From the NCBI GenBank assembly GCA_016936215.1, contig JAFGPL010000228.1, forward strand, positions 1 through 34,147: a DNA stretch of 34,147 nt. The letters are read 5' to 3'. Below are positions 2 through 33,901 of this stretch, piece by piece. Below the pieces are notes generated by a model. It was not told the origin of the DNA. It was given only the letters and a program-made list of their open reading frames with translations, and made no database searches. Position 1 is the first letter of the stretch. Every line of letters starts with the position of its first letter. Source of the DNA: Bacteroidales bacterium (lineage in GTDB: Bacteria; Bacteroidota; Bacteroidia; Bacteroidales; UBA10428). The position numbers and the translations under genes were made by a program.

Positions 2-3000
2 ATCAACTGGAATGGCTCCGAAATCATTACCTTCACAGCTACCGACCCCACCGGGCTTTCTGACAGGGATTCGGTAACATTTACCGTGACCCCGGTCAAC
101 GACCCGCCGGAAATAAAAAATATTGAACCCACAACCCTGATTTATACAGAAGGAGATGGCGAAAAAAGTATCTCGTCAACCATTCATTTAGAGGATAAAG
201 ACAATACCAGTCTTGCTTCTGCAATTGTTTCTATCATTACGGGTTATAACAGAAATGAAGACAGTCTTACTTTTCAAAACAATTTCGGCATCACAGGTGT
301 ATGGAATATTGAAACCGGCTCGATGAGTTTAACAGGTAATGCCACCCCTGCAAGTTACCAGCAGGCTTTAAGAAGTATCAAATATCTGAATTATAATGAA
401 ATAAATCCGGACAACGCTTTTCGCACCATTAAATTCATAATATTTGACGGTAACTTATACAGCAGTTTTTTAACACGAAACATTAATATTTTGCAGGTTA
501 ACGATGCCCCCTCAGTACAAAATGTAATGACAAGCGGAAGCAAGACCATTTTCTCAATTTTAAACGGCATTTACAATTATATTGATCCTGAAGGCGATAC
601 AGAAGGAAGTTCAGAATTTGGATGGTTCAGGGCATTAAATGAGTTGGGCGAAAATCCGGTAAAAATTGCTTCCTCGAAACAATACAGGCTTCAATTTTCT
701 GAAGGGGGCAAGTGGATTGGATTTACTGTAAGGCCAAAGGATGTTAAAAATGCTTTATCTGATACAAATTTTTATAGCAATCTTGAATACATCAATGCTG
801 CCCCTGTTGCTTTAAATCCCAGGGTAACAGGGCTTATAGGTTTAGACCAGACCATAACTGCCGAGTTCGATTACAGTGACACAGAAGGAAATCCGGAAAA
901 TACTGGAAATCATAAATATACATGGTATAAAGCAGATAACACACAGGGAAATCCTTTAAAAACCATTATTGGTACTGAAAAGCAATATACCATTTCAGGT
1001 ACAGATGAAGGAAAATATATAAGTTTTGAAACAGCGCCTGCCGCCAGTTCAGGATCTTTAATTGGAGACACCATTAAAAGCGAATGGTATGGCCCGATCT
1101 TTAGGTTGCCTTCAGCCGAAATCAGCGGAAACGACTCTGTCTGTAGCGGTGACACTGCCCGGTTAACAGTGCGCCTTACATACGGAACTCCCCCATGGAG
1201 TTTTACCTATATAGTTAACGGTAAAAGCCCTAAAACAATAACCGGGATTAATGGCACGGTTTTTACGCTAAAGGTGCCTGAGAATGGCGTGTATTCATTG
1301 ACCTCGATGAGAGATGCAAACAGGCGTGGCACAGTTACCGGAACAGGCAGGGTAACGTACCGTACTGCACCATCAGCCCTTCTTTCCGGAGGAGGAACGA
1401 TATGTGAGGGCACATCGGCCTTTTTGAAAGTTGAACTCACAGGCAGGGCACCCTGGAGTTTCAAATACAGGAAAGATAACCTTTCACCTGTTTATGTCGG
1501 CAATATTGCAACAAATGATTATCTTATGCCAGTGAAAAACGAAGGAACCTATTCGTTGACCGAGGTAACAGATAAATATTGTAAAGGCACTGTATCCGGC
1601 AGCGTACCGGTTTCTGTGATCCCTGCTCCAGAGGTTGAAATCGGAGGCCTTGGCGGGGCTTATAGCGTTAACAACAAAGAAATTCCTGTTTTTGGCACAC
1701 CCAAAGGGGGCAGCTTCAGTGGTGATGGATTGCTTACCCGCAATGATTCTGTTTTCTTCTATCCAAAATGGGCTGGTGTTGAAGGTTCACCACACAAAAT
1801 ATTATATTCTTACATGAGCCCCACTACCGGGTGCATTGGAAAAGACTCTGTAATGGTTGATGTACTGGCAGTAAATGCCGATATAATATTCCCCGGCAAC
1901 AAACTGCTTTTCTGTTACAATGAAACACCATTTTTAATAAGGGGAACAAACCTTGGAAATGTTATCGGTGAACTAACTATTTCCGGAGGCACAGGATTGA
2001 CCGATAATGGTGACAATACAGCAGTGATAGACCCCTCAAAACTCACAGGCGGTGAATACCATGTTACCTACAGATACTACCATAAAGCCTGGTTTGAATT
2101 AACCGAAAGTTTTACCATTGAATATGTGAATTCTATCTGGTTTATCGGTTTTGACAGAAATACCTTTTGCAATAATGATGTACAATATCCATTGAACGGC
2201 AACATGGAAAAAGGGATTTTTCATGGTGACAATGTTACAGGCAGTCCGCAGAATGGGTATTATTATGTTCCAGCCTATGCCCTGCCCGGTCCGGATACCA
2301 TTTTTTATACCTATACCACTGCAAACGGCTGTTCAAGGAGCATATCCGAAACGGTAACCATACAGGAGGCCCCCCGGATAAGTTTTACGGTAAGCGATAC
2401 TTGTATCATTGCAGGTTCGGAAATACCGGTCTATTTCATCAGCAATACTGTTTCAAAAGACAGCATAACAGTCTGGGAATGGAATTTTGATGATCCTTCC
2501 TCGGGTGTTAATAATAAGAGTGGAATGAAAAACCCCGGGCATGTTTACCACGATGCCGGCACACGTTATGTCTCATTGCGTGCCTCTTCCATTCTTGGTT
2601 GTTCGGCATCGCTCGAAAAGAAATTTATTTTCGGTGACCGCCCAAAAGTTGATTTTCACTGGGAGAGCGAATGTTTTCACGAAGACGGTCCGATATTGCT
2701 GACCGACCATTCAACCCTGAAGATAGGAATACCTGAGAAATACAAATGGATAGTAAAACTTGACCAAAAAGATTCTGTGCTTGAAAACAAAGATGTTTAT
2801 TTCAATTTTGAAAAGCCGGGCGAATACCTTATTTCCCATATCGTGCAATCTAACTATGGCTGTTCCGATACGCTTTCAAAAGTTATTCCTGTGAGGCCAG
2901 TGTTTAATATCTCAAATAATATTTATTTTGAAGATTTTGAAAACGGCCCAAACGGCTGGAATGCCTCGGTTGAGACAGCAGGTCAACAAAGTAACTGGAT

Positions 3001-4429
3001 TCTGGGAAATGGGTCTACAGCAATTAACAACGATTCAAAATACTGGTACACCATTGTTCAACCGGGCTTAAAACAGCAATCATCGGTGATCAGCCCCTGT
3101 TTTGATTTTACAATGACTAAAAAGCCAATGATACGGTTTGCTGCCAAAAGAAGCTTTGAGCAACTGAGGGATGGGGCAGTGCTTCAGTATATCTGTAAAG
3201 ATGACCAGGAATGGACAAACCTCGGTGATCTTAACAGCGGTATAAACTGGTACAACAGGTATTCCATTAACGGGCTTCCGGGAGGCCAATCTATAGGATG
3301 GTCTGATAATAAAGATGCCATTTGGACAGACATGAAGCACAATCTTGATTCCTTAAAAGGGTTATCGGACGTACGGTTCAGATTTGCATACGGAAACGAT
3401 GGGACAACTTTCGGCAACAATGGTTTCGCCTTCGACAGCATTTGGATTGGTGACCGCAGGAAGGTGGTACTGCTCGAGCATTTTACAAATATTTCGGACA
3501 CTACAAGTATTTCTGCGAATAGTGAATTACAAAATATTTTTAACAGGTCAAACAGCGATGTAATTAAAATACACTATCACACTTCATTTCCGGGGGTGGA
3601 TCCACTGAACCTTGAAAATCCGATTGTTTCAGAGGCAAGGGTATTTTATTACGGGCTCATCGAAGTCCCCTACACTTTTATGGATGGCGGTTCTGATGGA
3701 GCCCACCGGTACGACTATTACCTTCAGCATCCTGATATAAGGCAATTACAGTTGCAATCTTTAATCGACCCCATGTTTGATATTGACGTTACTACAGTGT
3801 TCGGGACCCACACAGTAAATATTAATCTGTTAATAAAAGCATTAAAACAAATTAATTTAAATGAATATACCCTGCATATTGCTGTTATTGAAAAAGAAAT
3901 TACCGGGGTCCAGGGTATTAACGGGGAATCGCGGTTCAGGGATGTTGTTAAAGCACTGGTACCAAATCCTGCCGGTTCGTATATTCATAAAGAATGGGGA
4001 GTGAATGAGCAACTTGAATTGAAGTATTCCTGGGACTATTCTGACAATGTTAGGCATACAGACCAGTTAAGGGTAGTAGTTTTTATTCAGGATGAAGGCA
4101 CCAGGGAAGTATATCAGTCTGCCATTGACAAATTCGACATCATTAGTTCTGTTCCCGACCACCCTGGCTGCAACTGCCCGTTTGATTATACAGTGTATCC
4201 CAATCCTGCATCAGACTTCACTTTGGTTACATTTTCATCTCCCCTTAAGGAAGATTTCTTAATGCGCATTTACAGTGCCGATGGTAAAATAATCGAAAAC
4301 AAAAAAATAGAGTCAGGAACAACAGTTTATTATCTTGATACACAAAAATTTGGCAAAGGATTGTTTTTCATTTTACTTTCTTCAAAGGATATTGTGTTAA
4401 AGCCTGTTCGCCTGGTAGTTGATTTCTGA
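2..4429 (+). CDS. Giant T9SS-secreted adhesin-like protein, 5' end outside window
   Basis: The frame is open from base 2, so this is the C-terminal 1475 residues of a longer protein; the GTG at 86 is not its start. The first residues (WNGSE..TFTATDPTGLSDRDSV) are typical of tandem cadherin-like/Ig-like bacterial repeats, followed by a second repeat type containing EDSLTF, GITGVWN and ALRSIKYLN. A PKD domain (VWEWNFDDPS, then GHVYHDAG) lies near residues 820-880, followed by a second PKD-like segment. A jelly-roll/MAM-like region starting at EDFENGPNGWN spans about 973-1153. A thioredoxin-like Omp28-type domain (VVLLEHFTN) spans about 1155-1377 but lacks the usual Cys pair. The end is a T9SS type A sorting domain (YPNPASDF ... 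GKGLFFILL). The protein is inferred to be exported across the outer membrane and cell-surface attached or released; its ligand is unknown. It converges on the kinase gene with 44 bp between stops. Confidence 0.9.
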   Translation: MNWNGSEIITFTATDPTGLSDRDSVTFTVTPVNDPPEIKNIEPTTLIYTEGDGEKSISSTIHLEDKDNTSLASAIVSIITGYNRNEDSLTFQNNFGITGVWNIETGSMSLTGNATPASYQQALRSIKYLNYNEINPDNAFRTIKFIIFDGNLYSSFLTRNINILQVNDAPSVQNVMTSGSKTIFSILNGIYNYIDPEGDTEGSSEFGWFRALNELGENPVKIASSKQYRLQFSEGGKWIGFTVRPKDVKNALSDTNFYSNLEYINAAPVALNPRVTGLIGLDQTITAEFDYSDTEGNPENTGNHKYTWYKADNTQGNPLKTIIGTEKQYTISGTDEGKYISFETAPAASSGSLIGDTIKSEWYGPIFRLPSAEISGNDSVCSGDTARLTVRLTYGTPPWSFTYIVNGKSPKTITGINGTVFTLKVPENGVYSLTSMRDANRRGTVTGTGRVTYRTAPSALLSGGGTICEGTSAFLKVELTGRAPWSFKYRKDNLSPVYVGNIATNDYLMPVKNEGTYSLTEVTDKYCKGTVSGSVPVSVIPAPEVEIGGLGGAYSVNNKEIPVFGTPKGGSFSGDGLLTRNDSVFFYPKWAGVEGSPHKILYSYMSPTTGCIGKDSVMVDVLAVNADIIFPGNKLLFCYNETPFLIRGTNLGNVIGELTISGGTGLTDNGDNTAVIDPSKLTGGEYHVTYRYYHKAWFELTESFTIEYVNSIWFIGFDRNTFCNNDVQYPLNGNMEKGIFHGDNVTGSPQNGYYYVPAYALPGPDTIFYTYTTANGCSRSISETVTIQEAPRISFTVSDTCIIAGSEIPVYFISNTVSKDSITVWEWNFDDPSSGVNNKSGMKNPGHVYHDAGTRYVSLRASSILGCSASLEKKFIFGDRPKVDFHWESECFHEDGPILLTDHSTLKIGIPEKYKWIVKLDQKDSVLENKDVYFNFEKPGEYLISHIVQSNYGCSDTLSKVIPVRPVFNISNNIYFEDFENGPNGWNASVETAGQQSNWILGNGSTAINNDSKYWYTIVQPGLKQQSSVISPCFDFTMTKKPMIRFAAKRSFEQLRDGAVLQYICKDDQEWTNLGDLNSGINWYNRYSINGLPGGQSIGWSDNKDAIWTDMKHNLDSLKGLSDVRFRFAYGNDGTTFGNNGFAFDSIWIGDRRKVVLLEHFTNISDTTSISANSELQNIFNRSNSDVIKIHYHTSFPGVDPLNLENPIVSEARVFYYGLIEVPYTFMDGGSDGAHRYDYYLQHPDIRQLQLQSLIDPMFDIDVTTVFGTHTVNINLLIKALKQINLNEYTLHIAVIEKEITGVQGINGESRFRDVVKALVPNPAGSYIHKEWGVNEQLELKYSWDYSDNVRHTDQLRVVVFIQDEGTREVYQSAIDKFDIISSVPDHPGCNCPFDYTVYPNPASDFTLVTFSSPLKEDFLMRIYSADGKIIENKKIESGTTVYYLDTQKFGKGLFFILLSSKDIVLKPVRLVVDF

Positions 4430-4473: not shown

Positions 4474-6672
4474 CTAAACAGGCAAAGACAAAAAAAATGT
4501 TGTGCCGGAATCTTCATTCGGCTGGTACCACAACTTTCCGCCAAGCAATTCAGAGAGCTGGCGGGATATGGACAATCCAAGCCCAAACCCCGGATAAAGC
4601 TTTCCATCACTGGAATTGATCTTGATAAAGCGGTTAAAAATACTCTCGCCCATTTCTTTACTAACACCAATACCAGTATCTTTTACAAAGAATTCAATTT
4701 CGCTTTTTTTCTTTTGATACCCTATTTCGATGAAGCCTTTTTCAGTAAACTTTATCGCATTGTTTACCAGGTTATAAAGTACCTGACGAAGACGTATCAC
4801 GTCGGTTTCAATAACAAGATTTTCTTTGTCAGCATGGTTCCTGTAAAAAATCTCTATATGATGTTTTTCACATCGCTCCTTTTCTCTATCAGCATATAAA
4901 GCAAGTTCAGACAAGACCTCCGGGACATTCACACGGTTAATGCTTATTTCAAGCTGTCCGGCTTCGATTTTCGAAATATCAATAATATCATTTATCAGCG
5001 TTAGCAAGTGGTCAGAAGAAGAACGGATATATTTGGACATCTTTTTTATCTCCTCCTCTGTAAGATTTCTCTCAGACATAAGGTATGAAAATCCCACAAT
5101 TGAGTTCAGCGGTGTCCTGATTTCATGTGACATATTGGCGAGAAAAGCAGACTTGAGCCGGTCAGACTCTTCGGCTTTCTTTTTGGCATTGATTAGTTCC
5201 TGTTCAAACTGTTTTTTATAAGTTACATCAATACCGATACCCCTTATACCAAAAGGTTTTCCGTCTTTTAAAATCAGGTTGGGATGGACTTCGTATATAA
5301 ATTGTCTACCCTCTTTGTCCCTGACCATGTATATTGAATCTGTAATTTTTTCTTTTTTAATTAGTTTTTTGATATTTGTGCTTGCTTTCTCAATATCTTC
5401 TTTAACTACAATATCCATCAGGTTAACTCCCCGGTTTAAATCTTCCTTGGTGTAACCAAACTTTTCGAAAGCATGGTTATTAACAAAGAGAAACCTTCCG
5501 TTCAGGTCGGTTTCGAAAACTATCTGGGGAAGTAGTTCTGCGAATTCCCTGAACCTGGACTCACTTTCTTTATATTTTTTCTCAGCCCTTATCCTCCTGA
5601 AATTGCTGATTACCAGAAATGTGATTATTATTAAAAGAACGATAATGAAAATGATCACAGCAACTGTTTCATATTTATATTCATCAAACAATTTCCCGGG
5701 TTTATTGATAAACCTGGCTTCCTGAGGAAAATTTTGAATGTTCAGGTGAAATTTTCCGGCCATTTTATAGTCAAAAATATACTCACCATCCTGCTCCGAA
5801 ATTTTCGGTACCCGGCTTTTGTCCTCTCCATCAAGCAGCTTTAGTGCTATAAGGGCAGTTTGCATGCCGTGTTTCCGTCCTGACCTTACGAACCCGCCGA
5901 TTGCCCCGCTGCCAATAACTTCAGGATAACTCGAATATACAGGGACATGGGCATGTTGTGCCAGCATGGCCCCAAAATCATGGGGGACTACCGGGTTTCC
6001 ATATGAATCTACCCCTACCCCGTGATAATAAATAATGTTATTGCCACCGAGACATGATACTTTCTCGACAAGTATTGGTACCGTATAGTTCTCAAGCAAT
6101 TCAAGCTTTGTTGATATCCCTTCGTTCTTGAAACATTCTGTCAGCACGCTGTCCCTGATCCTTCCGGTAGTGCTTTTCTCAGAAACAAAATAAAATGTGT
6201 CAATACTGAACTCGTGAATTTTCAGGATGGTTTGCACGATAGGAAGCCAGTCATCCGTTTCAAGCACCCCGAAATAATCTTTGTTTTCGATATTATAGTC
6301 TCTGTAATTTGAAATGCCGCAAAATACGACCGGAACATCCCATATCTTTTCAAAACTGCTGTTTATAATAAAATCGAGCGCATTATTGTCAGAAGTAATG
6401 ATAAGGTCAATTTTTACACTGTTGTATTTTGAAACCAGATAATCTTTAAAGTTTAAAATGTTTTTCTGCCCTGTAAACCTTTTGGCATCCTGGTATTCGA
6501 CATAGAGATTTACATCTGCCCTGTCTGCAAAAACTTCCTCGACCCCTTTGGTAATCCCGTCTGTCCAGGGGAAACCCGGATGATACGAATTAACAAGCAG
6601 CACATTCTTTTCGGAATAGGCATTGAACCATGTAAGTGCAAAAAAACTTATTAAAAAAATGCGACGGTCCAT
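4474..6672 (-). CDS. Hybrid-input sensor histidine kinase with ABC substrate-binding-like sensor domain
   Basis: The 732-residue protein has a signal peptide (residues 1-20) and a periplasmic region of about 310 residues resembling the ABC_sub_bind family (VLLVNSYHPGFPW; IDLIITSDNNALDF; VPVVFCGISNY). A single membrane helix lies at about 336-356, a PAS domain at about 370-487 (VFETDLNGRFLFVNNHAFEKFGY), and a HisKA domain has phosphoacceptor His516 in SHEIRTPLN. The HATPase domain shows an N box (NLVNNAIKFTEKG), G1 (DTGIGVS) and G2 (GFGLGLSISRQL). There is no receiver domain, so phosphate must go to a separate regulator, which is not adjacent. It probably senses a small periplasmic ligand; the ligand cannot be predicted. 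It is transcribed divergently from the phosphoesterase at 6868. Confidence 0.93.
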   Translation of the reverse strand: MDRRIFLISFFALTWFNAYSEKNVLLVNSYHPGFPWTDGITKGVEEVFADRADVNLYVEYQDAKRFTGQKNILNFKDYLVSKYNSVKIDLIITSDNNALDFIINSSFEKIWDVPVVFCGISNYRDYNIENKDYFGVLETDDWLPIVQTILKIHEFSIDTFYFVSEKSTTGRIRDSVLTECFKNEGISTKLELLENYTVPILVEKVSCLGGNNIIYYHGVGVDSYGNPVVPHDFGAMLAQHAHVPVYSSYPEVIGSGAIGGFVRSGRKHGMQTALIALKLLDGEDKSRVPKISEQDGEYIFDYKMAGKFHLNIQNFPQEARFINKPGKLFDEYKYETVAVIIFIIVLLIIITFLVISNFRRIRAEKKYKESESRFREFAELLPQIVFETDLNGRFLFVNNHAFEKFGYTKEDLNRGVNLMDIVVKEDIEKASTNIKKLIKKEKITDSIYMVRDKEGRQFIYEVHPNLILKDGKPFGIRGIGIDVTYKKQFEQELINAKKKAEESDRLKSAFLANMSHEIRTPLNSIVGFSYLMSERNLTEEEIKKMSKYIRSSSDHLLTLINDIIDISKIEAGQLEISINRVNVPEVLSELALYADREKERCEKHHIEIFYRNHADKENLVIETDVIRLRQVLYNLVNNAIKFTEKGFIEIGYQKKKSEIEFFVKDTGIGVSKEMGESIFNRFIKINSSDGKLYPGFGLGLSISRQLSELLGGKLWYQPNEDSGTTFFLSLPV

Positions 6673-6747
6673 CAGATTAATTATTCATTCAGGAAAAATG
6701 CAGCCTTTAAATATAATAATCACCGTTGAATTTTGAAAATAAACCTG

Positions 6748-6755
6748 CAAATATA
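6748..6755 (-). promoter_or_regulatory. Candidate -7 element for the sensor kinase gene
   Basis: On the minus strand this reads TATATTTG, matching the Bacteroidota primary-sigma -7 consensus TAnnTTTG. It lies about 75 bp upstream of the kinase start codon. I see no clear TTTG -33 partner at the usual spacing, so the call rests on one short motif. Confidence 0.3.
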
Positions 6756-6813
6756 ATGAAACTTTATAATTGACAGTTTCTGTTGCATATAACTGAGGTT
6801 TTAGCCAAAATTT

Positions 6814-6821
6814 TATGTTTG
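6814..6821 (+). promoter_or_regulatory. Candidate -7 element for the metallophosphoesterase gene
   Basis: TATGTTTG matches TAnnTTTG and lies 46 bp before the ATG at 6868, a suitable place for a Bacteroidota promoter. The -33 TTTG element is not evident. Confidence 0.35.
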
Positions 6822-6867
6822 TTACCCTGAAAATAACTAAATTTACTTACGACAAACCAAAAACCGG

Positions 6868-7527
6868 ATGGAAATAATTGCATTTACCGATATTCACGGG
6901 CGAACAGATTCTTTTGACAGGATATCCGGTAATATTAAATCGGCCGATCTAATCGTAATAGCAGGGGATATTACCCATTTTGGTTTAGAAAAAGATGCCA
7001 GGGCAGTATTGGAGAATATTGCACAATATAACGACAGCATACTTGTTGTTGCAGGAAATTGTGACCAAACAGGAGTCGTTAAATATTTATGCAGCCAGGA
7101 GTGGAACCTGCACAATGAAGTAAAAAACATAAACGGATACACCTTTATCGGGTTGGGAGGTTCATTGCCTTGTCCCGGCAAAACACCGCTTGAATATTCT
7201 GAAGAGGAATATAGTTTACATATTGCCTCCATCAGCGGAAAAATTAATGCAGAAACACAGAAAATCCTAATTACCCACCAACCCCCAGCTAACACGGTAA
7301 ATGACCAGGTGGCAGCAGGCCAGCATGTAGGCAGCCATATTATCAGAAAATTCATTGAAACACTTCAGCCCATAATTACCTTTACAGGGCATATTCACGA
7401 AGGTATAGGCATTGATACCATTGGTATTTCCAAAATCATTAATCCCGGCCCCTTCAGGGAAGGTAATTATGCCTATGCAAAAATTATTGACGGACAAATT
7501 ATTGATCTTGATATCAGGAAAATATAA
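6868..7527 (+). CDS. Calcineurin-like metallophosphoesterase
   Basis: The 219-residue cytoplasmic protein has the metal-binding signatures of the calcineurin-like phosphoesterase superfamily in order: FTDIHGR (D-x-H), VIAGDITHFG (GD), VVAGNCDQ (GN, with Cys-Asp in place of the usual His-Asp), ILITHQPP (H) and TGHIHEGIG (GHxH). Such proteins hydrolyse phosphodiesters or phosphomonoesters with two metal ions; the physiological substrate here is unknown. There is no signal peptide. It is transcribed alone, divergent from the sensor kinase and convergent with the ABC transporter gene 55 bp downstream. Confidence 0.88.
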   Translation: MEIIAFTDIHGRTDSFDRISGNIKSADLIVIAGDITHFGLEKDARAVLENIAQYNDSILVVAGNCDQTGVVKYLCSQEWNLHNEVKNINGYTFIGLGGSLPCPGKTPLEYSEEEYSLHIASISGKINAETQKILITHQPPANTVNDQVAAGQHVGSHIIRKFIETLQPIITFTGHIHEGIGIDTIGISKIINPGPFREGNYAYAKIIDGQIIDLDIRKI

Positions 7528-7582
7528 GTATTGAAAGATTTTACCGGAGAAAAAGTATACCCAACGAATTAGCTTTGGCCTT

Positions 7583-10500
7583 CTAATAATCAGCCTTTAT
7601 TTTCCACCTGTCTGAAATGCTTTCTGCATAATCGAGCAATTTCTTAAGCAATCTGAAATAAAGCACTATAAATAAAAGTAACGACATAACCCAGATCACA
7701 ATAGTATTGACCCAGAACGTACTATAATAATTTCCAAGGAACTGTTTCCGGGGCGCATAAAAATGGGCTTTAACAAATTTGTTTTCCGGATCGAGGTACA
7801 CCGGGTCTACCTTTTGATATAACTGACCTTTGTATTCAACGATCCTCACTACTTCGTTGGTATTCTCAACAAATTTTGCAAGTTCATCGTTGTGGTGGTT
7901 TCGTTTAAGCGCAAGAAAGGCCTCCTTTTTGGCAGGTGTATCCTGAAACTCCCTTATTATCCTGTCCCTGTCATCGTTTGCCCGGTTATATATTCTGATA
8001 TATACCTTATTAACAGTGTTAATATATTCTTTCGTGTTATTAATTACATTTGGTGTAAGGTGCTCCGGTGTAAGGCTGTCAAGATACTGAAATTCAACAT
8101 TCTGATTTTTCTCCAGCTTTTTTGAAACACCGCTTTTCAATTCCTTTCCAATCTCATTCCTTAGCACAAGCAGGTTATAACTTACTTTTTCACGGTATAA
8201 AGGATTATTGTAGTTTTTTTCAAGATAATCGAGTTTGTTAAGCAGGTTTTTAACCCAATAGTTTTTCTTGAATTCAGCATTGCTCATCACCTTGTTATGC
8301 TGATAAAATATTTTCATATAATCATTTTCCTTAAACTGGTATACCGAAAGCGCCTCATATCCCCAACGCGCAGTCATTATTTCACCATAAGCAGGAATAC
8401 TGCCGGGGGATGAGATTTTGGGGTTTAGTTTTTCATATTTCACAATTACACCACTAAGGATAATTTGCGGGATAACAAGAAAAGGAATTAATATATAGAT
8501 GGTTACCACTGTCTTAAAACTATCTGAAATCACAAGACCCATAAGGTTTGATGCAGCCCATGCGCTGAACAGGATAATCCAGTATTCGGCAAACATCCCC
8601 TTAATTTGTATGATGCTGTTACCGACAAGCACAAAAGTAAAAGCCTGTAATGCAGAAATACCAAGCATTACAGCAACTTTTGACAACAGGTAACTCATCC
8701 AGCTAAGGTTAAGAAAGGCTTCCCTTTTAAGTATCTTTCGGTCCTTAATTATCTCTTCGGCACTAACGGTAAGCCCCATAAAAATGGCCACGATCACCGA
8801 CATAAAAATGTATACCGGCAGGTTACTGTTCCCGACAAAAGTGTAACCAAGTTCATTCGTGGCGCTTACATCATAATATTTGATAATAAACGACAGGATA
8901 AATGCCAGCACCGGCGCTTCGAGAAAAGTAATAATGAGATACTGGGTATTTGCTAATTTTGAAAGGACATCGCGGGTTACAAAAATAAAAAACTGTTTCA
9001 TCCAGTTGGGTATCCTGAATGAAATTGATGGCAGTTCGCCCATTGATTTTACAGCATCCTGCTTTTGCTCTTTGCTTTCTTCATAATACTGGTTCCATTC
9101 TTTGGGTGATATTTTGCGGTGATAGGTCTGTTTACCGTATTCATCCACAATCAGCGACTCTACAATATTGAAAATTTGTTCGGGGTTGACATTTCCGCAT
9201 ATATGACATTCGCTTTCAGACCAGTTGGCCTGGTGTACCTTCGACTTAAAATATATAATCGAGTCAATGGGATCGCCGTTATAAATAAGATAACCTCCTG
9301 TGTCGAGGATCAGGAGACGGTCGAACATCTTAAAAATATCAGACGATGGCTGATGGATAACCACAAATACGAGTTTACCCTTCAGGGTTAGGTCTTTCAG
9401 CAGGTCCATGATGTTTTCCGAATCTCTCGACGACAGACCCGAAGTAGGTTCATCGAGAAACAACACGGCAGGCTCACGGATAAGCTCAAGGGCAATATTT
9501 AGCCTTTTTCGCTGTCCACCGCTAATTTTTTTATTTAGCGGCGTACCTACCATTATATCTTTTATCTCGAACAAACCAAGGTTTTGCAACACTTTATTCA
9601 CGGTCTCCTCAATTTCCTTCTCAGAGTAATGGCTGAAGCAAAGCCTGGCATTGTAATAAAGGTTCTGATATACAGTAAGTTCTTCAATCAAAAGGTCATC
9701 CTGTGATACATGGCCAATTAACCCTTCAAGTTTGTTCTCACCATCGTGTATGTCAATACCGTTGACCAATATCCTTCCGGTCGATGGCTTCGAAGAGCCG
9801 TTAAGCACGTTCAGCAAGGTTGATTTGCCTGCGCCGCTGGCACCCATGATTCCTACCAGCCTGCCCGATTCCTCCGAAAAACTCATCGGGTACAGGCCTG
9901 TTTTTTCATTCTTAAATTTATAACTGATATTTTCTACCTCAAATACTATCTTCGACTTTTGAGAATCATCGTTGAAAGTACTTACAATATCGCTGTAATA
10001 GATAGGTTTTACGTGGTGATTGCGTATTGATGAGCCAGTGTGCAGCACATACGACCTGTCCTGCTGCAAAAGCTGGCCGTTTACATACATTTCGCTTAAT
10101 CCGTTATACTTCAGGAAAAAGATATTCGCAGATGCAATGCTTAAAATCCTGATTTGCCCGATAAGAAACTCGGAAAAAAGATGCTTGGTTTCCGGATGTT
10201 TGAAATCTTTATTGTTATCTATTAACAGTATATCGGGGCTCGAAGGTACTTCACAGAATTTGCAAAGGGTAAATTCCTTAATCAGCCTATACTCATGTTC
10301 GGTTATATGGAAAGAAGAGGCTACCGTTTCGAGAAATTCAAATTCCTGTTTGGTGATGGTGCTTGAATCTGAATTAACAAATTCAAAAAGTTGTATCAGA
10401 ACAATGATTTTCTGCTTTTGGGTAAGCTCTTTATTTATGTACTTATCAATTATTTTAAGAACTTTTACCGAATCTCTGACAATCCTCAGTTCCTTGTGGT

Positions 10501-25164: not shown

Positions 25165-28100
25165 ATGAACAAAAGATTATTTATTCCAGCTATTGCAGTT
25201 TTACTTTTTTATTGTTTGCCGGGAAGGGCACAGACCGATCCGGGCACTGCAAACCTCATGCACCAATGGACATTTGATGATGGCACTGCCAATAATGCCA
25301 TAGCTTTAAATCCCTTACACGGAACCTTACAGGGAGGGGCAACAATAGCCAGCAAAGCACTGGTGCTTTCAGCCCAGGGACAATACCTCTCATTCTCTGG
25401 TACCGCTTTGGCATTGAATAATTATCCTGCTATATCGCAGGAAATCTGGTACTCCTCAGTAGCGGGCGCTAATACCGGTTTTACCATGCTTTCATATTTC
25501 GGAAACACATCCGGTGGTTTGGGCTATAATTATATATCTGCTTCTACGGCAAGGCAGGACAACATAAGCCGTATTGCCATTTCCAACGGTACATACAGCA
25601 ATGAAATATTTGCCGATGAGCCGGAATACGATGACGGCTTATTACACCAGATGGTTTCGGTAATTAATCCCGATTCAGTAATTCTCTTTATTGACGGAGA
25701 ACTTGTTTCCAAATCTACCAACACAATACCCCTGACTGCAATCGGCACATCCCTGGCCTACCTGGGCAAGGGAGGCTATACAAGCGACCCCACCTGGGTT
25801 GGTTCCATCTCACAGTTCAGTATTTACAATAAAACATTATCGCCCGGTGAGGTGAAATTTCTTTACCAGCAAGGTGCCGAACAATCGAAAATGATAACTT
25901 CAACTGTAAGCTTCATATCTTTTGATGAGTACTACACATCACAAAAAATCACCGTATCTGCACAAAACATTTCTGATACAATAAAAATTACTGCACCTGC
26001 CGGGATTACAGTAACACCTTCATCAATGCTCCCTGGCATGAGCAGCGCTATAATCACAATGAATTATGATACTGCTGTAGGCGTAGACGGAAATGTCGAA
26101 TTTTCCTGCGACAGTGCAGGTTTAACCATCCCTGTTAAATCTTTTTCAAATGCATGTTTTTCAAAACTTTATCCTTTTGCAGATAATCTTATTACCAATC
26201 CTTATATCAGTTCGCTTGACTCATTCTCAGGATGGGGAAACAGGAGCATTAATACAGATCCGGATTATGTTTACTGTGGCGCCACCAGTGGTAAAGTTAC
26301 CGGGAATAACGGAGGTTCACTGGATGTAACACTAACAGGACAATTACTTACAAATACCATCTATCGTATTAAAGCCCGCGTATATGCCATTGGTGGCCCT
26401 TTCCAGATAGGCGTTTTCGGGTGGAACGGCAACCAGGCAGATTTTAATAAATCAATTACCATAACAGGTTCATGGCAGGATGTGGATTTTACTTTTACAA
26501 CCGGTGAAACACTGGGCAATGCACAGGGAATTTTTTTCAACAACTATGGACTTGCAGGCACAACCGGTTACATTGACAACTGGGAAATGTATGCAGTGCC
26601 TAAAGTATACAGTTCATCGTCTTTTTTGGATTTTCTGTCGCCGGGTTCGAAAAAAACAACCTTACGGGGAGTTAACCTTCTGGAGGATATAATTATTACG
26701 GCTTCCGATGGTTTTACAGTTGCCCCCTCAACCATACCTGCCGATGTTAAAGGAGATACTTTAACCATCACATATACAGGAAATAAAACAACCAATGGTT
26801 ATATATTTTTTACCAGCGGCAACGTAAAAGACAGCATGTTTGTAAAAGGTTCTGTGGAACCAGCGCTGTTTACCTCTGTTGCTCTTATAGCAGTTGATGA
26901 AATTAACGACAGTGCAACTTTCGCCGTTACAGGTTATAACCTTACAACCGGTGTAACCCTCACAGCACCGTCAGGTATTACCCTCTCCGGCTATTCTTTG
27001 CCTTCGGATGTTGCAGGCACTATTGTAAAGATTAATTATGATGGACTTGCCAACTCTTCCGGAATAATTTCACTGACCAGCGGCACTGCAACTGCCAATA
27101 TTGACCTGATTGCCAGTCGCAACGACGAGTGTTTTATTCCACTTTTCCCTGAAAGAGAAAACCTGATTACCGACCCTACCTGCAATTATTTTGAAACAGA
27201 GGGATGGGGAGATAAGGGGATCAATACAGACCCTGCATTTGTATATTGCGGCAGCCGCAGCGGAAAAGTAACCGGCAATGGTTCTTTAGACCGGGTATTG
27301 ACGGGTGTTATGAAACCAAATACTACCTACCGGGTAAAGGCAAAAGTTTATAAAGAAAGCCCGGTAAATGGCGAAGACATGGGACACGTTACTTATACTT
27401 TAAACATTGACAGCGCTTCGAACCCCGAAGCATACCGTTTAATCACCGAGGCAATGGACAGTGCATGCGGATATTTTAATAAATACACCCCGTTTATTGA
27501 AAATATATATGTTTACTACGATGCAGGTATTCCCACTGCCCAGGCCAGTTATCACGGCAGTATAGGGTTTGGGCCCAATACACGCTATATGTGGGTGGGA
27601 ACTGCTATACACGAAATGGCCCATTATTTCGGATCAGGCACGACAACCACCTGGCAATCTCTGATGGCAAGCGGCGTATGGGCTGGTACTGTAGCTACTG
27701 CCCTAATGAATTCTATTAACGGCGGGATAATAAATGGAGATTCACAGCACTTCTGGCCATACGGGATCAACCAAAAGGAAGAAATAACCAGCTTGGGCTC
27801 ACTTGCAGTTCAGCACCAGGCACTTAGTGATGCAGTCAGGATTATTAAAGCCATGCTGGCAGACGACTGTGACCTGCCTACCAACAATCCCCCTGTCGGC
27901 ATAGGTATTTATGGCTGGAATGCAATATCAGAAGATATTTATCATGAAGTCACAATCTCGAATTCCTGGCAGGATATTGATTTCACCTTTACCACCGGCC
28001 CGCAGTTAAAGGCAAGCCAGGGGATATACTTCAACAGTGGCACCGGTTATATAGATAATTGGGAGATGTATGAAATACCTGTTGTAAATATTCCTCAACA

Positions 28101-28353
28101 GACCAATCTTCCTGTCACTAAAATTTATTTTCTGAATGGCAGACCTGTAACAGAATTGGCCTTAGCCAGGGAATCGCTTGTAAACATTGGTATTTATGAC
28201 CTTCAGGGCAGGATTATTGTCAGCGGGACATACAGATTCCAGGCCGGGACTGACAAAAAAATAATGAATGTTTTATTGCCTGAAGGTATTTATATTGTTA
28301 AGCTTGAATCTGATGATTTTACTGTTTCAAAAAAAGCAATATGCCAACATTAA
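25165..28353 (+). CDS. Secreted LamG/CBM-like T9SS protein with embedded HExxHxxG metallopeptidase-like domain
   Basis: The 1062-residue protein has a signal peptide (1-22), a LamG/concanavalin-like domain (about 28-240), an Ig-like beta domain (about 245-328), a CBM-like module (331-478), two more Ig-like beta domains (about 478-650), a second copy of the CBM-like module (656-1000), and a divergent T9SS sorting domain (LVNIGIYDLQGRIIVSG...GIYIVKLES). The second CBM copy is interrupted at residues 731-908 by a domain with HEMAHYFG (His816, Glu817, His820, Gly823), the HExxHxxG zinc-peptidase signature; NGDSQHFWPYG (conserved-looking His) follows. The same type of domain occurs in secreted lectin and glycoside-hydrolase proteins. 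It is probably exported to the surface to bind glycans, with possible proteolysis. It is upstream of the glycosidase gene with an 88-bp gap. Confidence 0.85.
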   Translation: MNKRLFIPAIAVLLFYCLPGRAQTDPGTANLMHQWTFDDGTANNAIALNPLHGTLQGGATIASKALVLSAQGQYLSFSGTALALNNYPAISQEIWYSSVAGANTGFTMLSYFGNTSGGLGYNYISASTARQDNISRIAISNGTYSNEIFADEPEYDDGLLHQMVSVINPDSVILFIDGELVSKSTNTIPLTAIGTSLAYLGKGGYTSDPTWVGSISQFSIYNKTLSPGEVKFLYQQGAEQSKMITSTVSFISFDEYYTSQKITVSAQNISDTIKITAPAGITVTPSSMLPGMSSAIITMNYDTAVGVDGNVEFSCDSAGLTIPVKSFSNACFSKLYPFADNLITNPYISSLDSFSGWGNRSINTDPDYVYCGATSGKVTGNNGGSLDVTLTGQLLTNTIYRIKARVYAIGGPFQIGVFGWNGNQADFNKSITITGSWQDVDFTFTTGETLGNAQGIFFNNYGLAGTTGYIDNWEMYAVPKVYSSSSFLDFLSPGSKKTTLRGVNLLEDIIITASDGFTVAPSTIPADVKGDTLTITYTGNKTTNGYIFFTSGNVKDSMFVKGSVEPALFTSVALIAVDEINDSATFAVTGYNLTTGVTLTAPSGITLSGYSLPSDVAGTIVKINYDGLANSSGIISLTSGTATANIDLIASRNDECFIPLFPERENLITDPTCNYFETEGWGDKGINTDPAFVYCGSRSGKVTGNGSLDRVLTGVMKPNTTYRVKAKVYKESPVNGEDMGHVTYTLNIDSASNPEAYRLITEAMDSACGYFNKYTPFIENIYVYYDAGIPTAQASYHGSIGFGPNTRYMWVGTAIHEMAHYFGSGTTTTWQSLMASGVWAGTVATALMNSINGGIINGDSQHFWPYGINQKEEITSLGSLAVQHQALSDAVRIIKAMLADDCDLPTNNPPVGIGIYGWNAISEDIYHEVTISNSWQDIDFTFTTGPQLKASQGIYFNSGTGYIDNWEMYEIPVVNIPQQTNLPVTKIYFLNGRPVTELALARESLVNIGIYDLQGRIIVSGTYRFQAGTDKKIMNVLLPEGIYIVKLESDDFTVSKKAICQH

Positions 28354-28441
28354 GATGTATACGATTGATAATTAACTTTAAAAAGCTTATTTATAATTAC
28401 ACTCAATAATGAAATGCAATTATTATTTAAATATTGAATCA

Positions 28442-31216
28442 ATGAAAAATTTATTAATATATCTGACACTATTGATATTATTCGTACCTGTACCTATAGG
28501 TTTGGATGCACAAACAACAAGCACCAGCAATTACCTGGCTGCCCAGCCTGTGATTCCTGACAGGTCAATTGGATACAGCGTTACAGACACAGGTGTTTAC
28601 AAACCAATTACATGGGGATTGGACCTGGCCTGGCTTAGTGAGGGAAATATCCGTCGGGGCATAGCCTTTATGGGGGCAGACAGGGTTGATGTAGTGAGGT
28701 CGTCTTTTACACCTACAGATTCTCTGGAAAACGGTGACCTGAAATCCGCAGAACTTGCCACCCTTAATCAACGGCTAAGTATTATCAATACATGGCTGGG
28801 GCCTGATACAAAAGTTGCGCTTAACTGCGACCACCCGTCTGTTCACCCCTGGTATGCAGGCAATGCAGCCCGCTGGGCACAATTGATAGATGTTACCACC
28901 CGGCGTCATCAGGAAGCAGGGCGCACGGTGGTTTCCGTTTCCCCTTTCAATGAGCCCGATTACGGCTGGGGTCAAGGTACCATCACCGACTTTTACAACA
29001 TAGCAGGTGAATTAAGGCTGAATCCCCGCTTCGACAGTATAAGAATTTCGGGCGGCAATACGCTTAATACCGACCAGGCTTTGGTTTGGTACAACCAGCT
29101 AAAAAACAGGTTAGACGAAGGAAATACCCATCAGCTTGCGGGCAGTTTCGATAATTATGCAAGTTTTTATACCACCGTGAGGGCCAATGGCCATCACGCC
29201 ACCAACGATGAACTGCACAATGTAATGGAGGCTATGGTTGGTGTTGAATACGGGTTGCAAACAGGCATCTGGTGGGGCACTGCTGAGCTGGCACGAGGTG
29301 AATTCGTTAAAGCCAGCGATGGCAGACGGTTGGGTTATGATGAACACCGGCCAAACTGGACTGCTGCATCGGTTTACCGTAACCCCGAAGGTAGAGTGCA
29401 GGCTTTTGGCGGCACATCAGAGCGACAGGCCGTAACCACAACATATCGCTTTGTCTCCAAAGACATGGATGTATTTTATGATGGCTATGGTCCGCAACGC
29501 GAATATATTATGATATTGCCGGGCGGAACCGGCTACCAGGAGGGACAGACCAATGCGGAAAGAGTTGTAAATATTTCCTGGGGCGATGACATCCAGCCTG
29601 TTATTAACGGACGGTATCTATTGGTAAACCGCAACAGCGGCAAAATTATGGAAGTGGCCGGCGGTTCATCGGCTGCCGGGACCAATATTCAACAAAATAA
29701 TTATACCGGTGCAACCTACCAGCAATGGGATGTTATCCCCGTGGATTCAAGAATAGGGGGCGATTTTAGCTACTTCACTTTAACCACCGCTCACAGCGGA
29801 AAAGCAGTTGACGTTTATAACTGGTCGCTGGATAACGGTGGCAACCTTGTGGTATGGGATGATACAAAAGGTGTTAACCAGCAATGGTATCTTGAGTATG
29901 CAGAGGATGGATGGTTTTACATCCGCAGCCGGCATAGCGCCAAATGCCTTGAAGTTGCTGATGCAAGCATTGCCAACGGGGCAAACGTTCAACAATGGGA
30001 TAAAGACAGTGGTACAAACCAGCAGTGGCGCTTTCTTACCGTGGAGACTGAAATTGAATTTAATCCACCTGCCGCACCTGGTAACCTCGCTGCCACTGCA
30101 AATGCAGAATCTGTTATATTAAACTGGACAGCCAGTCCGGAGCCTGATGTTTCGGGATATACAATACTCCGCTCAACTCGTCAGGGCGGGCCATACAATA
30201 CGATTGCCCGGGGCGTTACAACAACCTCTTTTGTGGACAATAGCACAACAACCAGTGGTAACTATTTTTACGTAATAATGGCTGTAGACAAAGCTTTGAA
30301 CCGGTCTCCATACTCTAATGAAGTTGAGGCAATTACAACCGGTTATAACAACATTGTTACACATTATGGTTTTGACGGCAACATTAATGATGGTACAATA
30401 AATTTAAACCATGGGGCACCATATGGTGAAATATCTTACGCTGAAGGTAAAACTGGCACAGGTTCATTAGCCCTAAACGGTTCAGATGCCTTTATTCAGT
30501 TGCCTTACAACCTGGCAAACCAACAGGAGATAACAATTACAGCATGGATATATTGGAATGGCGGCGCTACCTGGCAACGAATATTCGAATTTGGAAACGA
30601 TGGAAACGAATACATGTATTTAACACCAAGATTGCGTTTTGCCATTAAAAACCATACTTCAGAACAACGCCTTGATGCACCTGCTTTACCTGTTAGTGAA
30701 TGGTCGCATGTTGCTCTAACGCTGTCTGAATTAGTTGCACGCATATATGTTAATGGCCACCTTGCGAATGAATCAGATGCCATTACAATTAGCCCAACAG
30801 ACTTTAAGCCTGTATTGAACTATATTGGCCGGGGCCTGACACCAGTGCCTCAGTTCAATGGTTATATTGACGATTTCAGGGTGTATAACTATGCTTTGGA
30901 TTCCACTGATATTGAGGAAATTGTTGAAGGTGCTTCAACCAATCTGCCAGGTGCAGGATATACTGCCGAAAAAGATTTATACCTTTGGCCAATACCCGCA
31001 AATAATCATTTATATGTGAATCATCCTGCAACCCGGAGCAATCAATTATTTACACTTTCGGTGCTTGATGCAGATGGCAGGACGGTTATTAACAAATGCA
31101 TTAAAAATGATATTACTACAGAACTTGATATCTCAAACCTGCCTGAAGGCAGTTATCTGTTAAAAATAACCGACTTCGAAGTATCTGTAGTTAAAAAGTT
31201 TATCATCATGCGTTAA
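28442..31216 (+). CDS. Putative clan GH-A glycoside hydrolase with ricin, FN3, LamG and T9SS domains
   Basis: I use ATG 28442 (924 residues), which starts a clean signal peptide (MKNLLIYLTLLILFVPVPIGLDAQ); ATG 28409 would prepend 11 residues. The N-terminal 360 residues look like a TIM-barrel glycosidase: SPFNEPDYGWG places the expected acid/base Glu171 in an NEP motif, and Glu263 (VMEAMVG) or Glu269 (GVEYG) may be the nucleophile. The family within clan GH-A is not certain (GH30-like at best). A ricin-type beta-trefoil follows (about 389-535) with three QxW motifs (QQWDV, QQWYL, QQWRF), then FN3 (about 540-635), LamG-like (637-830) and a T9SS sorting domain (WPIPANNHLYV). Secreted or surface polysaccharide degradation is inferred. 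Confidence 0.85.
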   Translation: MKNLLIYLTLLILFVPVPIGLDAQTTSTSNYLAAQPVIPDRSIGYSVTDTGVYKPITWGLDLAWLSEGNIRRGIAFMGADRVDVVRSSFTPTDSLENGDLKSAELATLNQRLSIINTWLGPDTKVALNCDHPSVHPWYAGNAARWAQLIDVTTRRHQEAGRTVVSVSPFNEPDYGWGQGTITDFYNIAGELRLNPRFDSIRISGGNTLNTDQALVWYNQLKNRLDEGNTHQLAGSFDNYASFYTTVRANGHHATNDELHNVMEAMVGVEYGLQTGIWWGTAELARGEFVKASDGRRLGYDEHRPNWTAASVYRNPEGRVQAFGGTSERQAVTTTYRFVSKDMDVFYDGYGPQREYIMILPGGTGYQEGQTNAERVVNISWGDDIQPVINGRYLLVNRNSGKIMEVAGGSSAAGTNIQQNNYTGATYQQWDVIPVDSRIGGDFSYFTLTTAHSGKAVDVYNWSLDNGGNLVVWDDTKGVNQQWYLEYAEDGWFYIRSRHSAKCLEVADASIANGANVQQWDKDSGTNQQWRFLTVETEIEFNPPAAPGNLAATANAESVILNWTASPEPDVSGYTILRSTRQGGPYNTIARGVTTTSFVDNSTTTSGNYFYVIMAVDKALNRSPYSNEVEAITTGYNNIVTHYGFDGNINDGTINLNHGAPYGEISYAEGKTGTGSLALNGSDAFIQLPYNLANQQEITITAWIYWNGGATWQRIFEFGNDGNEYMYLTPRLRFAIKNHTSEQRLDAPALPVSEWSHVALTLSELVARIYVNGHLANESDAITISPTDFKPVLNYIGRGLTPVPQFNGYIDDFRVYNYALDSTDIEEIVEGASTNLPGAGYTAEKDLYLWPIPANNHLYVNHPATRSNQLFTLSVLDADGRTVINKCIKNDITTELDISNLPEGSYLLKITDFEVSVVKKFIIMR

Positions 31217-31981: not shown

Positions 31982-33901
31982 TTAATTTGTTTTAACCACT
32001 TTAAATATCCGGGTTATGTCGTTGCATTCCACCTTCACAAAATACATACCGGCTTTTGGAACAGAAACTATCTGTTTAGCATTGCCTTTCTGCTGAACAA
32101 CCAGGTTACCGCTAAGGTCATACACCATGATATTGGTATTTAAACCATTGGTAATTACAGTAAAGGTACCATTTGATATTGTCGGGTAAAGTAATACCGA
32201 CACTGTTTCAGCATCTTCAATAGCAGTTGGCAGAATAGTAAACTTAACAACATAGGTTAATGTTGCTGAATCGTCTTCTGCGGTAACTACAATAACTGTT
32301 GAATCACTTAAACCAGCAGCAGGAGTTACCACGGCTGCAGCATTTACATTGGCAGTTGTTGCAGTCACTGCGGGAACACTGGTAGTGCCATAAGGTAACC
32401 CAACATTATAAATCATTGAATCAGCCCTGAAACCATCTATGGATACGTCATTAACCTTAATATCGGATAAGGTTGCATCGTTTGATATTTCATAAAGCTC
32501 GTAATTGTCAATATAAGTAGCGGTGCAGTTGGAACCGAAATCACAGGTGTTGAAACTAAAGAATCCTGTTCTGGCAGCAGTTCCTGTCATAAAGATTGTA
32601 TCGAGTTCAACCCATTCACCTTCGGTATCGTAAGCAAAACCAAAGTCTTCACCATCGACATTTCCGCTGCCCCTTGCCAGGATACCAATACTTCCGCCAA
32701 CAGTTTTAACCATAGCACGAAGATGGTAAACGGTATTGGATTTCCATGCAAAGTCTGACAAATCCAATGCTGCGGTACAACCACTACCGGCTGCATCAAC
32801 CAATTTTGCGGCCCCTAAACCACAATAGGCCTCAAACCCGTAAACAATGCTTTTCGAACCCCATCCGCCAATTCCGGTAAGGCTGTCTAAAGTCGGAACG
32901 GATACAAAATTTGTCCTGCCATCATCGAATAAAGGAACAAAACAATCTTCTTCAAATTTAATATCAATGGTATAAATTCTTTCGGCCGTTCCATCTGCTG
33001 AAGTTACCTTGATGGTATCGGTGGTTTCACCGCCAGACAGGTCAACAGCTCCCCCGCCTGTTACCGTTGCAGAAGAATTATTTGGGGTAGCAGTAATGTT
33101 GACGGTTGCTGTACCTGATGGTACCTCTATAGCAAAATGTGAAACCAGCGGATCAAAAGCAGGTGTAATTGTCCCTGCATCTGCAGTAAGATCTGAAAGC
33201 TTGTCATCAGAAGCACTAAGGAATGTTGCTGCATTGGCTTCAATGGTTGCTACATCCATAGAACCTTCGTAAATATTATACTCGTGTATAGAACCTAACC
33301 ATGATGGGTCTGGCCAGCCGCCTGCGCATAGCATTGCAGTATCTGTTGCAATATCGGAAATAGCTTTGCTGTGTTTTGCTTCGCCAATTAAGGCACCATC
33401 AATGTAAAATGTAATGGTAGAATCTGTGAGGATACTAACGATATGATGCAACTTGCCGTCTTCGAGTTCTGCCCCGCTAACAGATGCGCCATCGACATAT
33501 TCTGTACGGCTTATATTGTCATTCCTGGCAATAGATACAAAATATGCATTCGTCCCGTTTGCACCTCCGAAATAGGTTAGCATAGTCCAGCCCGGGTTTG
33601 AAGCATTACCGGCACGCAAATATACTTCCTGTGTAATGGCACTGTATGTTGAAAGTGCCAGTGCAGCACCACTGAATTTAATATAGTCTCCGTTTGCAGC
33701 AGAGGTATATATCCCGCCTGCAATTGTACCTGTCCCCATGATGGTTCCGTTAACGGTGCCGGTTCCATCATTTGCCGTACCATCTTCAAAAGTATAGGAA
33801 TGCCTCAGGGTTACTTGCCCTGTAACCCCCATTGTAATAGTCAAGCCAAGAAAAGCAGTGGCTATCAGAACTTTAAAAAAAAGTAGATGTTTCAATTTCA
33901 T
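31982..33901 (-). CDS. Secreted LamG / cadherin-like / CBM-like protein with T9SS sorting domain
   Basis: The 639-residue protein has a signal peptide (1-28), a LamG/concanavalin-like domain (about 30-230) clearly related to that of the protein at 25165 (shared SYxxFxDGTAN, YxAITQE, WTMLTYFG, QDNISR/NDNISR), a cadherin-like beta-sandwich (about 232-315, LSDLTADAGTITPAFDP), a CBM-like module (320-473) beginning CFVPLF and ending YIDNYELYE, a second cadherin-like beta-sandwich (about 475-560), and a T9SS sorting domain (about 563-639, LLYPTISNGTFTV). No catalytic motif is visible, so it is inferred to be a glycan-binding surface or secreted protein. It is convergent with the glycosidase gene. 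Confidence 0.87.
   Translation of the reverse strand: MKLKHLLFFKVLIATAFLGLTITMGVTGQVTLRHSYTFEDGTANDGTGTVNGTIMGTGTIAGGIYTSAANGDYIKFSGAALALSTYSAITQEVYLRAGNASNPGWTMLTYFGGANGTNAYFVSIARNDNISRTEYVDGASVSGAELEDGKLHHIVSILTDSTITFYIDGALIGEAKHSKAISDIATDTAMLCAGGWPDPSWLGSIHEYNIYEGSMDVATIEANAATFLSASDDKLSDLTADAGTITPAFDPLVSHFAIEVPSGTATVNITATPNNSSATVTGGGAVDLSGGETTDTIKVTSADGTAERIYTIDIKFEEDCFVPLFDDGRTNFVSVPTLDSLTGIGGWGSKSIVYGFEAYCGLGAAKLVDAAGSGCTAALDLSDFAWKSNTVYHLRAMVKTVGGSIGILARGSGNVDGEDFGFAYDTEGEWVELDTIFMTGTAARTGFFSFNTCDFGSNCTATYIDNYELYEISNDATLSDIKVNDVSIDGFRADSMIYNVGLPYGTTSVPAVTATTANVNAAAVVTPAAGLSDSTVIVVTAEDDSATLTYVVKFTILPTAIEDAETVSVLLYPTISNGTFTVITNGLNTNIMVYDLSGNLVVQQKGNAKQIVSVPKAGMYFVKVECNDITRIFKVVKTN

Follow-up and report, generated by a model that had tools for sequence, protein, structure and literature searches.

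A zincin-like domain nested within a carbohydrate-binding-like module of a predicted secreted protein from a Bacteroidales bacterium

M60-like (PF13402) mucinases are HExxH metallopeptidases, also of Bacteroidota, that carry glycan-binding CBM32 or CBM51 modules. In the available portions of the papers describing them (PMC3267712, PMC13003899) these modules are presented as appended, whereas in the protein described here the HExxH domain is nested in a carbohydrate-binding-like module (CBM). An M60-like enzyme needs its CBM32 to act on large mucins but can dispense with it on short glycopeptides, according to the accessible part of the source (PMC13003899). Svx gluzincins of pectolytic plant pathogens are extracellular HExxH proteins that occur in a pectin-degradation setting, with extensins as the proposed substrate in the portion of the paper at hand (PMC9266454). 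None of the open-licence PMC papers that the searches listed, judged by title and opening of the abstract, deals with a zincin nested in a CBM, and a description outside the open-licence set is possible. The opposite nesting, of CBMs inside a GH10 enzyme, is known. Two features of the locus reported here appear to be new, namely an enzyme-like domain that sits inside a CBM, and a zincin-like domain family that is absent from the libraries we searched.

The window, by which we mean the whole stretch of DNA analysed (34,147 nucleotides, contig JAFGPL010000228.1 of assembly GCA_016936215.1), encodes a host protein made up of a LamG_3 domain, Ig-like repeats (recognized by eye), a first CBM copy, a second CBM copy with the nested domain, and a type 9 secretion system (T9SS) sorting tail. 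Pfam matched Laminin_G_3 to residues 73–231 (44.6 bits) and CBM_4_9 (PF02018) to two stretches of the protein (50.6 bits against a cut-off of 25.9), the best of which, residues 341–453, is copy 1. By eye, a putative signal peptide occupies about residues 1–22, and the C-terminus matches the NCBIfam sorting domain TIGR04183 (31.6 bits against a cut-off of 23), with Pfam PF18962 just below its own cut-off (25.1 against 27). The features of the locus are as follows.

25165–28353, plus strand: host gene, an open frame for a 1062-aa protein (ORF list)
26167–26598, plus strand: CBM_4_9-like module copy 1, uninterrupted (Pfam and genome search)
26386–26397, plus strand: AIGG of copy 1 (residues 408–411), where the nested domain stands in copy 2 (alignment)
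27142–27354, plus strand: CBM copy 2, N-terminal half (positions 1–74 of the copy 1 query, 58% identity, E 1.1e-19)
27355–27888, plus strand: nested zincin-like domain with linkers, residues 731–908 (178 residues); conserved core 27379–27885 (residues 739–907) by profile
27610–27624, plus strand: HEMAH motif (H816, E817, H820); HExxH in 20 of 20 aligned rows
27748–27750, plus strand: invariant H862 (H127 of the alignments), in HFWPYGIN; candidate third zinc ligand
27781–27783, plus strand: invariant E873 (E138 of the alignments); alternative candidate third ligand
27886–28074, plus strand: CBM copy 2, C-terminal half (positions 76–143 of the copy 1 query, 57% identity, E 1.5e-18)
28171–28341, plus strand: T9SS type A sorting domain (residues 1003–1059 matched)
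28409–31216, plus strand: next gene, 55 bp downstream, with an NEPD-motif region, a ricin-type lectin, LamG_3 and a T9SS tail (Pfam); partner family
31982–33901, minus strand: paralogue with LamG, cadherin-like and uninterrupted CBM parts and a weak DUF6242 match under the cut-off (Pfam and copy 1 search)

The original prediction held that the second module copy is interrupted by about 178 residues carrying HExxH with the reading frame left open, and a genome search and shuffle scores agree in bearing this out. Use of copy 1 as a query against the whole 5.3-Mb draft genome returned three other matches at E 0.001 or better. Two of these are the halves of copy 2, which abut at one point of copy 1 with 27355–27885 lying between them, and the third is a continuous copy at 32489–32914 on the minus strand (32%, E 8.9e-12), within the paralogue listed above. 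The sole residues of copy 1 between its matched halves are AIGG, a four-residue turn. In local alignments to copy 1 the two halves scored 221 and 209, and 1000 shuffles of each reached at most 47 and 57; at 33, the insert stays at the shuffle level (mean 31.9, maximum 58). The limits predicted for the insert, 27355–27888, proved right. Nesting in a loop of the module finds support in the sequence itself, in homologues that share the arrangement and in module copies that are uninterrupted at other places. At the level of sequence, then, we regard the location of a zincin-like domain inside the second CBM_4_9-like module as confirmed.

Scanning of genome contigs uncovered relatives of the insert at 12 loci, and the same nesting at the same site of the module is present in Maribellus sediminis (L011) and in genomes G219 (L023) and G709 (L054). 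The nested domains are flanked by the strand (T/S)YR(V/M)(K/R)AKV(Y/F) and then, on the far side, by VG(I/L)G(I/V); their N-side linkers measure about 3–9 residues, and the nested modules of the other lineages are 58–68% identical to that of the window. Adjoining the nested gene in M. sediminis is a gene (L011:2-3586) that resembles the minus-strand paralogue of the window. A maximum-likelihood tree of 27 domain rows puts the four nested ones together on one side of a branch with support of 84/95. This branch is unstarred and two of the nested rows are near copies; none of 500 label shuffles gave as few changes. The domain was probably inserted into the CBM turn once, as judged from these sequences.

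At the loci read, the domain commonly occurs without this CBM, and at most of them it is C-terminal or central in other proteins, after FN3-like repeats (by eye). Genomes G219 and G709 hold stand-alone copies of the domain in addition to the nested one. In Dysgonomonas sp. 216 a stand-alone domain protein without a Pfam match is encoded at L022:5146-6519, and the very next frame (6526-7818) carries two unbroken module copies, which have 40% and 35% identity to copy 1 by BLAST and no Pfam match at 0.001. By its alignments, this gene pair is the same two parts un-nested.

Relatives of the insert are present in 9 of 247 genomes of the order and in 12 of 393 in a larger sample of the order, in 1 of 23 genomes of the window's family (the window's own), and in 3 of 395 genomes of the phylum, among them G574 (E 9.8e-4). 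The G574 match was considered as a domain carrier; it is a Peptidase_M8 protein and was left uncounted. Three pairs of domain-bearing genomes each share a genus (G219 and G709, G111 and G702, G078 and G182), and we took G709 to be the source assembly of L012, and G223 that of L019. Among plasmids the domain occurs in 2 of 72,556 records, both from Clavibacter phaseoli (38.7% identity), and on this match the family extends to Actinomycetota. One of these plasmids carries a 183-aa single-domain form, annotated as a hypothetical protein (L050:3932-4483), three genes away from a GH43 gene. The 87 pattern matches in viral contigs included no relative of the insert.

Alignment of 20 rows of the domain, the nested ones included, indicated that HExxH, two glycines, H127, W129, N134 and E138 are invariant. 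H127 comes 41–51 residues past the second zinc histidine in all 20 rows; in the window the invariant histidine and the invariant glutamate lie 41 and 52 residues after it, respectively. E138 falls in helix 136–140 of the insert model, and in classical gluzincins the third-ligand glutamate is on a later helix. Zinc may be bound by H816, H820 and H862 (or E873). Searched alone, the insert matched no Pfam or NCBIfam entry at E 1 and no PDB sequence at E 10, a profile of the 20 rows had no match in the PDB, and the 20 rows searched singly gave nothing better than E 0.088 in Pfam; the NCBIfam search of the domain was made with the window sequence only. Going by these searches, the domain is a zincin-like family absent from the three libraries (Pfam, NCBIfam and PDB sequences).

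The canonical metzincin motif HExxHxxGxxH/D occurs in 0 of 20 rows. The window lacks the M60 pattern HEXXHX(8,28)E, which is not conserved in the family of its domain either (7 of 20 rows have the pattern, with no invariant glutamate there), and PF13402 matched neither the host protein nor any of the 20 rows. The Svx motif is HEXXHX(22)E in the part of the source available (PMC9266454), whereas in the window the spacing is that given above; the comparison with Svx is one of motif spacing. Like M8 leishmanolysin-like peptidases, the domain has HExxHxxGxG, a following tryptophan and a distal H-W. In hhalign comparisons, the family profile (A1) aligned to an M8 protein of the same phylum (L056) with a probability of 86 (pairwise E 4.7e-6, 85 columns), H127 falling one column off the distal histidine of L056, and to a three-row M8 alignment with a probability of 85 over 40 columns; single HExxHxxGxxH proteins that served as controls gave 17, 19 and 3, and of six M43 loci meant as controls two had a usable stretch. 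The L056 score is a selected one, because L056 was chosen as an earlier match of A1, and the probability was lower with two further M8 rows: 66 for one, whose alignment lay outside the active site, and 64 over 20 columns for the other. In contrast to M8, the domain has I, V, Y or D at the Met-turn column, as placed by the L056 alignment, with methionine in 0 of 20 rows, and Pfam M8 (PF01457) matched none of the 20 rows. Because of the selected score, the weaker M8 rows, the Met-turn column and the Pfam result, we call the insert zincin-like and not M8; a relationship to M8 is suggestive only.

Whether the insert folds as a separate unit had been set as a check that could refute the original prediction, and a model of the insert alone (residues 736–903) has a pLDDT of 90.6 and a pTM of 0.88, which supports a separate unit. 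The HExxH motif lies in helix 76–86 of this model. Zincin peptidases by title account for 49 of the 50 structural neighbours listed, which include M1 aminopeptidases, MMPs, astacin-type enzymes, ProA and LTA4H, the remaining neighbour being a TFIID chain; the Z scores of the listed neighbours are 6.8–7.4, so that even the best (7.4) is below the comparison tool's caution line of 8. Foldseek found no match at E 0.001 or better for either this model or that of the nested module, and its weak list for the insert includes non-peptidases, for example YbeY. Our reading is that the insert has a zincin-type fold and that none of the neighbours listed is a close solved relative. Of the earlier description of the insert as metallopeptidase-like, what stands is the fold and the motif (HExxH in all rows, and the listed neighbours at Z of 7.4 or less); what does not follow is a place among proven peptidases, to no family of which the insert has a significant match. 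The nested domain may have peptidase activity.

The nested module (residues 651–978) was modelled with AlphaFold2 from 13 rows, of which the CBM part rested on two, uninterrupted-CBM rows having been dropped from the input as wholly or partly misaligned. This model has a mean pLDDT of 71.1 and a pTM of 0.59, with the insert mostly at 80–97 by block, and model residues 1–43 and 45–63, in the CBM, fall below a pLDDT of 50 (62 CBM residues, over 40%). Untrimmed, and so with its low-pLDDT residues included, the model aligned to the CBM16 structure 3oea with a Z of 10.3 (105 residues aligned, model residues 39 to 321, rmsd 2.6). Across CBM16 structures VIA-align gave 102–107 residues (about 38 to 321), Z 9.8–10.3 and rmsd 2.4–2.9, and for the porphyran-binding CBM 8xmz the figures are 102 residues, Z 9.7 and 22% identity, again untrimmed in both cases. 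Other sandwich domains, insecticidal toxins among them, came within 1 Z of CBM16. Because the C-terminal half has about 70 residues, the CBM16 alignment must use residues that precede the insert, unless it uses residues of the insert itself. Given the ties within 1 Z and the untrimmed low-confidence residues, the alignments indicate a plausible common fold, not a family. The split module aligns to the same sandwich as CBM16/CBM_4_9 and 8xmz, and here a whole zincin-like domain replaces one of its turns.

The gene immediately downstream of the host gene encodes the NEPD/ricin protein. Its NEPD region, which is clan-GH-A-like by eye only, has no catalytic Pfam or NCBIfam match and no significant relative in the PDB (3clw at E 0.25), and the protein may be a glycosidase. 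Homologues were sought with a profile (A8) of four rows drawn from genes near domain genes, three of which came from the window, G111 and G702. The NEPD/ricin family is present in 10 of the 13 domain-bearing genomes; across the order it occurs in 10 of 384, and 9 of the latter 10, three of which supplied rows of A8, carry the zincin domain (binomial 2e-13 against the domain base rate of 12/393, with genomes taken as independent, the 384- and 393-genome samples overlapping and G691 taken as belonging to the latter). The exceptions are G691, where only the partner occurs, and G041, G709 and G505, where only the domain does. Partner homologues adjoin the domain gene or lie within two genes of it in the window and at L014, L028 and L052; the remaining 7 of the 10 genomes that have both carry partner and domain on different contigs, and linkage alone therefore does not explain the co-occurrence. 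Near the partner gene are a GH2 gene and a pectate-lyase-like gene in G143 and a PF11790/LamG gene and a hybrid two-component regulator in G078; in G219, G223 and G794 the neighbours chosen for the scan serve transport or housekeeping, apart from one that encodes a DUF3868 protein.

The most frequent close companion that we measured is a PF11790 (Glyco_hydro_cc) gene. Of 13 domain-bearing genomes, which have 0–3 such genes each, 8 have one no further than 7 kb from the domain. We take PF11790 to be the family of GH128 beta-1,3-glucanases, and NEP-type motifs presumably mark GH30-like enzymes. Scans of neighbours of the domain gene covered chosen genes. These included GH43 (L011, L014 and L016), GH127 with an alpha-galactosidase-like gene (L023), GH2 (L017 and L019), GH31 (L054) and a PL11-like gene (L028). 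Several others of those scanned are no CAZymes, namely LamG/cadherin proteins, a fasciclin protein, regulators, an L-fucose isomerase, transporters, housekeeping genes and proteins without a match. Genes for GH43, GH127, PL11-like and alpha-galactosidase-like proteins are the usual set for pectin and arabinogalactan. In Dysgonomonas sp. 216 the domain gene is preceded by one for a DUF6055 and DUF4859 protein (L017:2718-4829). At the contig edge, the window itself begins with an open-ended ORF of 1475 aa (2-4429) that matches PKD and Ig-like domains, has an Omp28 match under the cut-off and carries a T9SS tail.

We propose, with confidence that is evenly divided, that the host protein is a secreted, glycan-anchored zinc metallopeptidase nested in a CBM and belonging to a set of proteins that degrade cell walls or glycoproteins. 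A peptidase-like domain of an HExxH family would have entered a turn of a CBM4/9/16-like beta-sandwich. The type 9 secretion system would export the host protein, its sorting tail placing it outside the cell, and there the LamG domain and the CBM copies would tether it to complex glycans. The nested zincin could then cut protein or protein-linked material beside the bound glycan, while the NEPD/ricin protein and PF11790 proteins would cut glycans in the same matrix. By analogy, M60-like mucinases, which depend on CBM32 on large mucins, are a working precedent (PMC13003899, in the part available). A glycoprotein substrate is suggested by the architecture and the gene company; the split module may bind sugar, and the nested domain may be held in a rigid orientation, with which its short N-side linkers are compatible. 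Plant or algal wall glycoproteins fit the gene company best, and a fungal wall is possible. A wider version of this proposal, which we put forward tentatively and think less probable than improbable, is that a distal-His zincin family without a Met-turn, the NEPD/ricin protein and PF11790 would form a recurring set for protein-linked wall glycans of plants, algae or fungi, a counterpart to the mucinases, and that in one lineage the peptidase was joined into a CBM such that one rigid joint would set both capture and cleavage.

Several other explanations bear on these proposals. The split module could in principle be an assembly error, a frameshift or a broken gene, and the genome is indeed a draft in 332 contigs; however, the frame is open, both halves are conserved and the assemblies of three other genomes have the same nesting at the same site. 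Because homologous nested loci exist we reject assembly error, the chance of which we consider negligible. It is possible, if rather doubtful, that the arrangement is a neutral fusion in a tolerant turn, such that the split module may not bind sugar and the position of the domain would have no functional role. CBM-less forms are commoner among the loci read and the nested form is found at four loci only, two of them from one genus, as a neutral fusion might have it, but the split halves keep 57–58% identity to copy 1 and the nested module has been kept across lineages at the identity to the window given above.

Other alternatives accept the nesting and assign the domain a different task or target. 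We think it unlikely that the insert keeps its HExxH metal site for action on non-peptide bonds (glycan esters or acetyl groups), or for substrate binding only. The listed structural neighbours, nearly all zincin peptidases by title, and an HExxHxxG motif whose H, E, H and G do not vary speak against this, even though the invariants H.W...N...E fit no Pfam family matched, many of the scanned neighbours are carbohydrate-active and YbeY, which is not a peptidase, is among the weak Foldseek matches. A target in fungal or microbial walls (beta-glucan with mannoprotein), in place of plant or algal wall glycoprotein, would suit the presumed links of PF11790 to GH128 and of NEP motifs to GH30-like enzymes, and the frequency of PF11790 genes as close companions. 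We nevertheless judge such a target to be quite improbable in view of the GH43, GH127, PL11-like and alpha-galactosidase-like genes at some domain loci and the pectate-lyase-like neighbour of the partner gene in G143.

The glycan-targeted secreted metallopeptidases that we have read about are mostly mucin-degrading. Lying among polysaccharide-breakdown genes, the domain offers a lead to a peptidase-like family that is as yet undescribed. If the proposal of a glycan-anchored metallopeptidase is true, this uncatalogued zincin family would provide a handle on the treatment of wall glycoproteins by free-living Bacteroidota, and the nested form would be a natural experiment in how a single turn can couple an enzyme and a CBM, for which the stand-alone and two-gene versions may serve as the comparison.
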